From contig CAMWGV010000017.1 of assembly GCA_947173945.1 (NCBI GenBank), positions 1-46,003 on the forward strand: 46,003 nt of DNA. The letters are read 5' to 3'. The stretch is from an uncultured Lachnospiraceae bacterium. Lineage in GTDB: Bacteria > Bacillota > Clostridia > Lachnospirales > Lachnospiraceae. The position numbers and the translations under genes are program-made. Below the pieces are notes generated by a model. The model did not search any database. It was not told where the DNA came from and saw only the letters and a program-made list of their open reading frames with translations. Positions 6,958 to 10,667 of the stretch are shown one piece after another; the stretch's first letter is position 1; every line of letters begins with the position of its first letter.

Positions 6958-9360
6958 ATGAGATATGGCTACTTTGATGATGCAAACAAGGAGTATGTAA
7001 TAGACAGACCGGATACACCTGCTCCTTGGGCAAACTATTTGGGTTCACCGGAATATGGTGCTATTATTTCCAACAATGCGGGCGGTTACAGCTTCGTAAA
7101 ATCCGGTGCTAACGGAAGAATATTGAGATATGTATTTAACGGATTTGACCAACCCGGAAGATACATATATATAAGGGACAATGCTTCAAAGGATTTTTGG
7201 TCAGCATCATGGCAGCCGGTTGGAAAGTCTCTTGATACATATGAAAGCAGATGCCATCATGGTACGGGCTATACAAACATAAAGGCATCTTATACCGGAA
7301 TAGATACAGAGGCACTTTATTATGTTCCACTGGATAAGACACATGAGGTATGGAGGCTTAAGATTACAAATAACTCAGACAGTACCAGAGAGTTGTCTGT
7401 TATGGGGTATTGTGAATTTACAAATGATAATAATTATGAGCAGGATCAGGTCAATCTTCAATATACACAGTTTATCACAAGGACATATTTTAAAGGAAAC
7501 AGAATTAAGCAGATAATAAATGAAAATGTAAATAAGGGTGCTGACGTAGACGGAAATGTATCATTTATGAGGTTTTTCGGTCTTGCAGGTGGCGAGGTTG
7601 CAAGCTACTGCGGAGACAAGGAGGAATTTATTGGAAGATATCACAGCTACGCAAATCCGAAAGCTGTGATAGATGGAGATTGTGGAAATAAGCTGAATTA
7701 TAACTCCAATGCCTGTGGTGCACTTGAGACAAAGCTTACTCTTGCACCGGGAGAATCAAAGGAAATTGCATTTATACTTGGTATGAAAAATGATGCTGAG
7801 GCAGAAGAGGTTATTAAGGGTTACAGTGATGTTGCAAAAGCAACACAGGATGAACTTGATGAGCTTAAGAAATACTGGCATGGAAAGCTCAACAATTTAC
7901 AGGTTAAAACACCGAGTGCGTCATTTAACGCTATGATAAATACGTGGAATGCATATCAGTGTTTTATGACATTTATATGGTCAAGAGCTGCCTCTTTCTC
8001 ATATTGTGGATTGCGGAACGGATATGGCTACAGAGATACGGTTCAGGATATACAGGGAATTATTCATCTGGCACCTGAAATGGCACTTGATAAAATACGC
8101 TTTATGCTGTCGGCACAGGTGGACAATGGCGGCGGACTTCCGCTTGTTAAGTTTGATCACAATGCAGGACATGAGGATACACCGGATGATGAGTCGTATG
8201 TGAGAGCAACAGGACATCCGGCATACAGGGCAGATGATGCACTTTGGCTGTTTCCTACAATATACAAATATATTTCTGAGTCGGGAAATGTTGATTTCAT
8301 AGATGAGGTTATTGTATTTGCAAATGGAGGAGAGGGAACTGTTTATGAGCATTTAAAGAGAGCGATAGACTTTTCCATGAACAGGCTTGGAAATAATAAC
8401 ATGCCTGCAGGACTTCATGCAGACTGGAATGATTGTCTGCGACTTGGTAAGAAGGGTGAGTCTACATTTGTTGCAATGCAGCTTTACTATGCAATGACTG
8501 TACTTCGTGGATTTGCTGAAAGGAAAAATGATAGTGAGTATATAGCATATCTCGATAAGGTACAAAAGGAGCTTGGTGATACAATTCAGTCTAAATGCTG
8601 GGAAGATGACAGATACATACGTGGCTATAAGGAAGATGGAATGATAATCGGTTCAAAGCATGACCCGGAGGCAAATATGTGGCTTAACCCACAGTCATGG
8701 TCAGTTATCAGTGGTCTTGCAACAAAAGAACAGGCAGAGAAAGCACTTGAGTCAGTACATAGAGAGCTTAATACTCCGTATGGTGTAAGGCTTATGGCAC
8801 CGTCCTATGTTGACCATGCCTTTGAGGGGGCATTGATGCTGCTGTTTAATCCGTCAACAAAGGAAAACGGAGGTATATTCTCACAGCCACAGGGTTGGAT
8901 TATACTTGCTGAGTCACTTATGGGACATGGAGACAGGGCTTTTGAATACTTTGAGGAGAGTTCACCTGCATCTATGAATGATAAGGCTGAAATAAGAAAG
9001 CTTGAACCATATTGTCATGGACAGTTTACGGAAAGTACGGAAAGTCCTTTTGAAGGAAGGTCCCATGTACACTGGCTTACAGGAACAGCATCAACGGTTA
9101 TGGTTGGCTGTGTTGAGGGTATTCTGGGTATGAGACCTGATTTTGAAGGCTTAAAAATAGCTCCGTCAATTCCTTCTGAGTGGAAAGAATTTGAGATTTC
9201 AAAGGTATTCAGAGGAAAGAAGTTAAATATTAAGGTTACTAACCCTGACGGGGCGCAGAGTGGATATAAAACACTTACATTAAATGGTGAAGCTATGGCA
9301 GACAATTATATTCCGTTTGACAAGCTTGCTGATGTAAATGAGATATCTCTTGTGATGTAA
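6958..9360 (+). CDS. GH94 cellobiose phosphorylase
   Basis: The product is predicted to phosphorolyse cellobiose to glucose 1-phosphate and glucose in the cytoplasm, saving ATP during growth on cellulose or beta-glucan oligosaccharides. The 800-residue length and N-terminus (MRYGYFDDANKEYVIDRPDT ... SNNAGGYSF) match cellobiose phosphorylases. An N-terminal beta-sandwich domain is followed by an (alpha/alpha)6 barrel carrying the general-acid motif HADWNDCLRLG (Asp at about 489-492). Near the C-terminus, ILGMRPDFEGLKIAPSIP is typical of GH94. A GGAGG lies 7 nt before the ATG. No transporter or regulator is adjacent, so it appears monocistronic. Related GH94 enzymes act on cellodextrin or chitobiose; length and N-terminus favour cellobiose. 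Confidence 0.93.
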   Translation: MRYGYFDDANKEYVIDRPDTPAPWANYLGSPEYGAIISNNAGGYSFVKSGANGRILRYVFNGFDQPGRYIYIRDNASKDFWSASWQPVGKSLDTYESRCHHGTGYTNIKASYTGIDTEALYYVPLDKTHEVWRLKITNNSDSTRELSVMGYCEFTNDNNYEQDQVNLQYTQFITRTYFKGNRIKQIINENVNKGADVDGNVSFMRFFGLAGGEVASYCGDKEEFIGRYHSYANPKAVIDGDCGNKLNYNSNACGALETKLTLAPGESKEIAFILGMKNDAEAEEVIKGYSDVAKATQDELDELKKYWHGKLNNLQVKTPSASFNAMINTWNAYQCFMTFIWSRAASFSYCGLRNGYGYRDTVQDIQGIIHLAPEMALDKIRFMLSAQVDNGGGLPLVKFDHNAGHEDTPDDESYVRATGHPAYRADDALWLFPTIYKYISESGNVDFIDEVIVFANGGEGTVYEHLKRAIDFSMNRLGNNNMPAGLHADWNDCLRLGKKGESTFVAMQLYYAMTVLRGFAERKNDSEYIAYLDKVQKELGDTIQSKCWEDDRYIRGYKEDGMIIGSKHDPEANMWLNPQSWSVISGLATKEQAEKALESVHRELNTPYGVRLMAPSYVDHAFEGALMLLFNPSTKENGGIFSQPQGWIILAESLMGHGDRAFEYFEESSPASMNDKAEIRKLEPYCHGQFTESTESPFEGRSHVHWLTGTASTVMVGCVEGILGMRPDFEGLKIAPSIPSEWKEFEISKVFRGKKLNIKVTNPDGAQSGYKTLTLNGEAMADNYIPFDKLADVNEISLVM

Positions 9361-9399
9361 CATAGAAGTAGACATTTGTGGCAACAGAGTAAGAAAAGC

Positions 9400-9848
9400 G
9401 GCTGTCGCACGAAGCATATTTAATAACATAAACATGTTTTTTATCTGTCAGTTGCTTATGGGTTGTCCACACGATACAGCTATACTGTAAACTAAAAACC
9501 GTTTGAAGACGTTGGTACTTGAGTTGGTGCTTGGGTATATTAGTATAGGTGGTTGAAAAACTCGCTCCCGCTCGTCTCAGACGTAACAGTACTAAAAATT
9601 GCCGGCTTAAGATATCCTTATATAAAATGGGGATACTTTGAGCCGGCAATTTAAGTACCGACGTCTTCAAACGGTTTTTCAGCCACCTATACTAATATAC
9701 CCAAGCACCAACTCTTAGTACCGTTACGTCTGAAACGAACGAAAGTGAGTTTTTAGTTACAGTATACGCTGTATCGTGTGGGCAACCCATGCTGTAAAAT
9801 ACCAATAAAAACATGTTTATGTTATAAGTATGCTTCGTGCGACAGTCC
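9400..9848. repeat. 449-bp multilayer palindromic element between convergent genes
   Basis: This 3'-3' intergenic element has at least six pairs of complementary arms. Outer layers nest: 9400-9444 with 9805-9848, and 9458-9498 with 9750-9790. The core nests: 9594-9617 with 9629-9652 (ATTGCCGGCT type). Three inner arms are crossed: A 9499-9519 with 9654-9674 (20 of 21), B 9521-9560 with 9675-9714 (39 of 40), and C 9556-9593 with 9717-9754. In a simple palindrome the right side would read C'-B'-A'; here it reads A'-B'-C'. The outermost arms (GGCTGTCGCAC / GTGCGACAGTCC) resemble terminators elsewhere in this window. No protein-coding content. It may be a MITE-like insertion, layered terminators, or a structured RNA. 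Confidence 0.85.
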
Positions 9849-9856
9849 CATATAAG

Positions 9857-10588
9857 TTATTCTGAACTATCATCCAAGGTGTTAGTCAGAAAGCGCCCAT
9901 CGTAAAAATATGTAACTGCCACAACCCTGTTAGAGTTTCCATTGACGGTTACAGCAAGCAGTTCATTTGTTTTTGTATTTTGATAGTAGGTACTCATTGA
10001 ACGTGTATCCATAAGGTCATTCAAAATGCTGAATTCATTGTCATATGGAAATGTAATATTGTCAGCAACATCATATTCAGGGTCGCCTATTTTAACGCCA
10101 AATACCTTATAGTTCTTACCGTCTATGGCTATGCCGAATTGCTTATTATTTTTATAAATAATGCCTATGCCGCTATTGGATTTAACCGTAATGCCGCCAC
10201 TTAAATTGCTGAAAATAGGGAGGCGGCTGCACCATGCACTGTCAGGTTCAAAGCTTCCGCTTAGCTTAAGCTGCTTCACGATTGTTGACTCATCAGATTT
10301 TACATAATCCGTAATATCCGTTGTAGTGAAGTTTGGTTTGATTACATTTTTATAAACAGTCATTAAAATAGTAGCGAAAATAATGAATACGAATACTCTG
10401 ATAATTATCCCTACATGTGTATTCTTTCGGGATTCTACAGGTATAGGAACCTCGTCAAATCTAATCACAACGGGCTTTGGGGTAGTTGTATTCTGCATTC
10501 TGCCGTAAACATCATTTTGGATAAATTGCGCATCACTTTGGTTATCTCTGCTTTCATTTTTTGTGTCATCCTTAAGCTTTAATTCCAT
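9857..10588 (-). CDS. Single-pass membrane protein, unknown, downstream of a TetR regulator
   Basis: The 243-residue protein has a polar N-terminal tail of about 58 residues, one membrane segment (about 59-80, VGIIIRVFVFIIFATILMTV), and an outer domain of about 160 residues with no recognised fold. The ATG at 10588 is preferred because AGGACAGG lies just upstream; a TTG at 10642 would add 18 residues with no clear ribosome binding site. It begins 80 bp after the TetR gene on the same strand, so the two are probably cotranscribed, and the regulator may control it. Its stop is next to the palindromic element, which may terminate it. Function not known. Confidence 0.75.
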   Translation of the reverse strand: MELKLKDDTKNESRDNQSDAQFIQNDVYGRMQNTTTPKPVVIRFDEVPIPVESRKNTHVGIIIRVFVFIIFATILMTVYKNVIKPNFTTTDITDYVKSDESTIVKQLKLSGSFEPDSAWCSRLPIFSNLSGGITVKSNSGIGIIYKNNKQFGIAIDGKNYKVFGVKIGDPEYDVADNITFPYDNEFSILNDLMDTRSMSTYYQNTKTNELLAVTVNGNSNRVVAVTYFYDGRFLTNTLDDSSE

Positions 10589-10667
10589 AATGTCCTGTCC
10601 TTTGCTTTTTGTTAGAATACCATTATTAAGGTCAAGCTGCAAGCATAAGATTTATAGTGCTTACTTG

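Follow-up and report, generated by a model that had tools for sequence, protein, structure and literature searches.

The palindromes described here make up a gut-bacterial repeat family that appears mobile. They resemble MITEs in being short and intergenic, in having terminal inverted repeats and a high copy number, in lacking a protein gene, and, in one genome (G134), in carrying 8-bp target duplications. Unlike MITEs, they possess a conserved folded core, hereafter module M, that is common to palindromes with dissimilar ends in three genomes, and they can hold several such modules arranged concentrically and in alternating orientation. Integron attC sites combine conserved boxes within variable paired stems with a strand asymmetry created by unpaired bases and, judged against that general description, M is similar, having conserved boxes in variable stems and strands that are not equivalent.

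The BOX elements of Streptococcus pneumoniae are likewise composite, containing an internal module in varying copy number and a predicted stem-loop, and like M elements they are over-represented between convergent genes; however, boxB copies lie in tandem between boxA and boxC, whereas M is concentric and alternating (PMC3049150, accessible portion; BOX is taken here from its description). REPs and BIMEs are also dispersed imperfect palindromes, and BIMEs alternate the orientation of their REPs (PMC3733652 and PMC2817692, accessible portions), but REPs measure 20-40 bp and stand side by side, whereas M spans ~80-120 nt and is nested (PMC3733652, accessible portion). The REP tag reads GTAG or CGTC. 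Next to its GGTACTTA stem, M has CGTC on one strand opposed by GTA(G or A), both of them variable, and the whole unit is far larger. The accessible portions of PMC3733652, PMC3049150, and PMC10969869 do not describe the M repeat, and literature searches in which subscription journals were thinly covered turned up no description of it, so that its unpublished status is unproven. By analogy, the element analyzed here is MITE-like in its working and BOX-like in its modular make-up.

Results

Architecture of the element

We analyzed a stretch of 46,003 nucleotides (the window) from an uncultured Lachnospiraceae bacterium (assembly GCA_947173945.1, contig CAMWGV010000017.1). The element, an outer palindrome with two nested modules, occupies positions 9400..9848 (449 bp, no strand assigned). 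It lies between two convergent genes, an upstream 800-aa ORF (6958..9360, plus strand), which we take to resemble a glycoside phosphorylase, and a downstream 261-aa ORF (9857..10642, minus strand). The left terminal inverted repeat, GGCTGTCGCACGAAG (9400..9414, plus strand), shows one mismatch to the family form GGCTGTCGCACTAAG and the right one (9833..9847, minus strand) shows two. Outer arms were delimited by inverted-repeat search and folding at 9402..9493 (plus) and 9755..9845 (minus). The outer module M consists of a 5' half, A (9494..9526, plus), and a 3' half, C' (9709..9754, minus), which is the partner of A in the nested fold. Arms B (9521..9561, plus) and B' (9674..9714, minus) form the variable stem that separates both modules. 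The inner module is M reversed in orientation, composed of C (9556..9601, plus) and its partner A' (9647..9679, minus), and contains a core hairpin found by inverted-repeat search (9596..9652, no strand assigned). Each module bears a GNRA mini-hairpin, GC-GGGA-GC in the inner one (9564..9571, read on the minus strand) and AC-GAAA-GT in the outer one (9739..9746, plus strand, identified by eye). The only ORF of at least 60 aa overlapping the element (125 aa, minus strand, 9293-9670) was judged to be a chance ORF; the element is thus short and without an internal transposase gene, as are MITEs. Terminator-like sites were absent from 9300-9950, and the window copy has no U-tract.

The crossed arms fold as a nested hairpin

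The original prediction described three inner arms in the order A-B-C and A'-B'-C' rather than mirrored, and for the best-matching arms this is correct. Arm A (9494-9526/9647-9679) reaches 91% complementarity across 33 nt, with 21/21 positions pairing in its core (9499-9519/9654-9674); arm B (9521-9561/9674-9714) is 98% complementary over 41 nt and arm C (9556-9601/9709-9754) 83% over 46 nt. The full order is A-B-C-core-A'-B'-C', while the outer arms (9402-9480/9768-9845) and the core (9596-9617/9631-9652) nest normally. What had been overlooked is that A is also complementary to C', and C to A'. A and C are one sequence in two lengths, short and long respectively, and the small GNRA hairpin lies in the portion that only the longer form (C) has. 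Either half thus finds a close match in crossed order and a bulged one in nested order. Since every M joins a short half (A) to a long half (C'), two opposite concentric M read A-B-C-core-A'-B'-C'.

The fold energy of the 449-base stretch was -268.6 kcal/mol, against a mean of -104.4 (sd 5.9; z -28) for 100 dinucleotide shuffles, none of which reached the native energy. The minimum-energy structure was entirely nested, paired 386/449 bases, and comprised the helices A:C' (9717-9754), B:B', and C:A'. The expectation that A-A' and C-C' could form only as pseudoknots or alternative folds beside B-B' missed this arrangement, in which A:C' and C:A' coexist with B-B'. Forcing A-A' incurred a penalty of ~50 kcal/mol with RNA parameters and 36 with DNA parameters; for C-C' (from 9561 on) the corresponding values were ~52 and 46.

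Covariation was scored in 34 nested elements at 22 positions, giving 747 cells with one set aside for a gap, and in 128 cells the four copies of a position were not all alike. Both nested pairs were kept and both crossed pairs broken in 78 cells, and the reverse held in five, so that crossed pairing was favored in 5/83 cells with both sides changed. Most nested-favoring cells fall in six junction positions belonging to adjacent stems; without these six, the count was 13 nested versus 2 crossed. By energy and covariation, the crossed appearance is that of one ordinary nested hairpin. More generally, inverted repeats that look crossed may be the nested fold of alternating asymmetric modules.

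A conserved asymmetric module

From the outside inward, the asymmetric hairpin M consists of an outer stem, a junction in which one strand forms a GNRA mini-hairpin, a GACGT/ACGTC stem, a 2-nt bulge, the GGTACTTA/TTAGTACC stem, and, innermost, a variable stem. A covariance model (R2) was built from 33 modules of many genera, whose consensus has 26 pairs, with two-sided changes at 21. R2 matched the inner module of the window element at 9554..9682 on the minus strand (70.2 bits) and gave 110 matches, 103 of them distinct, in 87 loci. A GNRA loop was present in 103/103 distinct modules (GAAA 49, GAGA 35, GGGA 8, GGAA 5, GCAA 3, and GCGA 3), a count to be read with the loop being part of R2 itself, so that loop-less copies may escape detection. 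The stems of the mini-hairpin varied too. The conserved asymmetry of M suggests that one strand is recognized as a folded hairpin, of DNA or RNA. In genome G036, five copies (L203-L207) shared an identical 84-nt module, and their outer arms differed with paired changes (by eye), as if replacement or correction acted faster on the arms than on the module.

Module number and alternating orientation

A similarity search with the element recovered two further full-length copies on other contigs of its own genome, giving three in all (100, 96, and 91% identity). The inner 260 bp had many copies on many contigs, with 101 matching pieces among the matches listed, both strands counted. Thirty loci of the same genome were inspected and contained zero, one, two (most), or three modules. 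The zero-module elements L028 and L030 have 64 and 52 bp between recognized ends, single-module elements include L033-L038, and L025 is a three-module element.

The unusual order also recurred in homologs. Half-sites were scanned in 49 loci (the window and L009-L056), and at least four were found in 34, of which the genome of the window contributed 20 and eight further genomes of the genus the remaining 14. Every one of the 34 had the order A-C-A'-C', either directly or as the reverse complement. The original prediction had named homologs that without exception keep the ordinary nested order as a result that would count against it, and the nested homologs instead showed the crossed order. The triples L025 and L042 read A-C-A-C'-A'-C', and L040 is an incomplete triple; this order means that the outer M is A...C', the next M its inverse, and so on. 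Doubles of the genus probably share few origins, and 34/34 therefore does not represent 34 independent events. Further loci of the genus, which may partly repeat copies already counted, yielded 12 complete doubles, one incomplete triple, 12 singles, and four fragments. Same-orientation nesting occurred neither among the 49 scanned loci nor among these further loci. Rearrangement of a plain palindrome at short homologies, proposed originally, does not fit an arrangement that is regular in nested members and that keeps alternating in triples. The words AGTACT and AGTACC, seen as borders of swapped pieces, are indeed present and belong to the repeated module (GGTACTT...TTAGTACC). The further idea of a recent origin or continued selection holds in a general sense only.

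Outside the genus, 80 clusters with at least two half-sites were all single M without nesting (in 26/80, a third label reflected an overlapping second match within one module), which marks nesting as a local feature. Side-by-side arrangements were observed in G076 (L141, L144, and L146) and G120 (L068 and L157), where two single M lie ~0.08-0.4 kb apart in opposite orientation, like REP pairs. In L188 of G320 (~890-1165), a stretch of ~105-120 bp covering the outer arm and an A-like module start recurs as about three tandem copies adjoining a complete module.

Taxonomic distribution

BLAST matches to the element were confined to 12/61 genomes, all of the same genus as the window. A covariance model (R1) built on the innermost module detected M in 35/37 genomes of the genus, with at least two matches in each of the 35. 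In the family draw (E up to 0.001, with rough E-values and strict filters), it matched 91/299 genomes, corresponding to 90/298 genera. Among 291 genomes drawn from the class, R2 (E up to 1e-5) matched seven, every one of them from Lachnospiraceae, while further members of the family in this draw gave no match. One exact M pattern was found in 34 stretches of named contigs, from MAGs titled Lachnospiraceae bacterium or Clostridium sp. The same pattern had no matches in viral contigs, which speaks against a phage origin as far as that pattern alone can test it. M matched no Rfam family. Rfam release 15 returned no match in the window at gathering score; at looser E-values there were seven, plus six in 19 loci, all below gathering score and mostly microRNA-type hairpins.

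Ends, target duplications, and the search for a transposase

In the genome of the window, GGCTGTCGCACTAAG ends occurred at 42 places at up to 2 mismatches, versus none for the reversed control. In G134, which belongs to another genus, the end GTAACAGTTCAGCCGT was present at at least 103 forward and at least 99 reverse places, versus 3 and 4 for the control. Twenty G134 sites were taken in which both ends were listed within ~220 bp: 16 measured 216-220 bp and contained M (by eye), and two of 110 bp and two of 61 bp had no full M. With three earlier loci these made 23 units, of which nine had perfect 8-bp target duplications and 18 matched at 6/8 or better, compared with 4/506 left-right pairs from different units at the latter threshold. 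The 8-bp duplications at both M-bearing and shortened palindromes indicate that the G134 elements move like MITEs. Across the 16 longer units, arms differed less within an element, on average, than left arms did between copies; 29 cells had changed identically on both arms and 95 on one arm or otherwise. The 110-bp versions (L219 and L220) seem to derive from the 216-bp unit by loss of an internal segment between short direct repeats. The 8-bp target duplication of L219 is nevertheless perfect, and shortened units may thus have kept the ability to move.

Seven loci were considered in G111: L071 matched at 8/8 with a one-base shift at each end, L147 and L149 at 6/8, and three others at 3-5/8, while the ends of L148 were not found. 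In the genus of the window, both ends were recognized in 21 of 60 loci and none of the 21 had a direct repeat of at least 5 bp, one having 4 bp. Target duplications were shown only in G134, from a genus other than that of the window, plus the single case L071 in G111. End sequences of three genomes were no more similar to one another than shuffles. In G261, the left palindrome end of L211 (~780-860), and likewise of L212 and L213, carries one or more GTAGTATCGCAAAACTACGG-like repeats, and the two palindrome ends are therefore not symmetric.

A transposase sharing the ends, or an autonomous relative, was not found. Y1 transposase (Pfam PF01797) was matched in four of eight M-bearing genomes searched and had no match in the other four (G000, G006, G036, and G347), the genome of the window included; this led us to reject it as the mover and sets the elements apart from the REP/RAYT system. 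UPF0236, presumably linked to ends of this kind and the sole DDE family tried, had no matches anywhere, its controls likewise giving none. An autonomous parent bracketed by M was sought between opposite-orientation M pairs 0.2-1.1 kb apart (12 loci fetched) and was also rejected; in four of the 12 (L185, L187, L188, and L189), ORF lists inspected by eye showed ordinary genes or none between the M copies. No M was caught inserting into another M, and how nesting arose is therefore something that we infer.

Placement between convergent genes

With neighbors called from ORFs of at least 70 aa in the loci other than the window, 27 of the 34 nested elements lay between convergent genes, five did not, and two were unclassifiable (27/32). 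Background frequencies of convergent pairs were 17/214 adjacent pairs and 7/106 for gaps of at least 60 bp, drawn from the window and 34 loci of the genus using ORFs of ~100 aa or more and excluding gaps with the M motif, where a few loci may overlap. With loci treated as independent, Fisher p was ~1e-19. Single-M loci (55, of which 54 were from other genera and one from the genus of the window) were not clearly enriched, with 7/49 classified loci convergent. In G021, the same two convergent genes as in the window are ~150 bp apart and the element is absent; the gap holds an apparent ordinary terminator hairpin with a U-tract (by eye).

Discussion

The window element is probably a composite, non-autonomous MITE-like palindrome with M at its core and a second M nested in opposite orientation. 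Its full membership among MITEs is plausible, but target duplications were found only in another genus. A cut-and-paste (DDE) transposase encoded elsewhere would move the palindromes via their terminal repeats, and a second M would be added at the hairpin apex; in this copy the second M sits in the inner stem of the first with its orientation reversed. Nesting in the same orientation would put direct repeats near each other, inviting deletion, and this may be why only opposite nesting survives. Between convergent genes, nested copies might be retained as barriers to transcription from both sides, whether tolerated or useful.

The structural switch or pseudoknot suggested by the original prediction is very improbable. 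A-A' and C-C' are highly complementary and five cells do covary for crossed pairing, but the nested fold is ~50 kcal/mol better than a fold containing either crossed helix with RNA parameters, and 78 cells favor nesting; on fold energy and covariation together we reject it. Palindromes are hard to assemble, and the arm order might reflect misassembly or else a single rearrangement event in a simple palindrome. That explanation is scarcely credible for an order kept in 34/34 nested elements (49 loci scanned, nine genomes), the more so because two more full-length copies at 91-96% identity lie on other contigs, and it too was discarded. Quite unlikely, in our estimation, is that M serves above all as a structured RNA, a motif not yet described that acts in transcripts and has the palindromes as its expression platform or dispersal form. 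Such a role would suit the constant GNRA loop (103/103 with a loop-containing model, N being A, G, or C, on stems whose pairs change) and the covariation at 21/26 pairs. d(GCGAAAGC) is, however, a very stable DNA mini-hairpin, so that a GNRA loop alone cannot decide between RNA and DNA. Wobble pairs were rare and their one-sidedness inconsistent: on the M strand, G-U exceeded A-C in the model-fitted alignment, which is biased towards the model (38 versus 11), but not in 55 outer stems (50 versus 62), the inner stems (3 versus 10), or the genus doubles (13 versus 25), and one M position was C-A 31 times and never U-G. This mixed picture decides neither for RNA nor for DNA. Against a role in transcripts stand also the orientation of M, which is independent of co-directional neighbors (17 same and 18 opposite among the 55 single-M loci), and the location of inner and outer M on opposite strands.

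Nested copies could instead be selected mainly as two-way terminators or insulators between convergent genes, mobility being only their route of arrival. This is compatible with the composite palindrome favored here, and as the main explanation it strikes us as somewhat unlikely. It draws on the 27/32 nested copies between convergent genes, on the U-tract hairpin that takes the place of the element in G021, and on A- and T-tracts just outside the tips of some copies (for example L012, L015, and L020, by eye). Yet the window copy has neither a U-tract nor a terminator-like site nearby, and of the 49 classified single-M loci, which come almost entirely from other genera, seven are convergent. 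Moreover, purifying selection against palindromes elsewhere would yield the same pattern, and pneumococcal BOX, RUP, SPRITE, and IS elements also prefer convergent genes (PMC3049150, accessible portion).

Returning to the composite palindrome, we tentatively propose, with a little less than even confidence, that M represents a so far undescribed structural motif of nucleic acids that is widespread across Lachnospiraceae and works as a folded single-strand core. Palindromic mobile elements whose ends are unrelated would reuse this core, and in one genus it would be self-nesting, its polarity strictly alternating, which would leave one functional M per DNA strand of a double. The conserved core was found in 90/298 sampled genera of the family while arms and ends change, which we judge to be unusual for bacterial MITEs. 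The covariance model R2 can be used to annotate this abundant intergenic repeat of Lachnospiraceae. M elements also offer a test bed for the persistence of long palindromes in bacteria, whose arms drift yet stay paired, and for the question of why nesting occurs only in alternating orientation.
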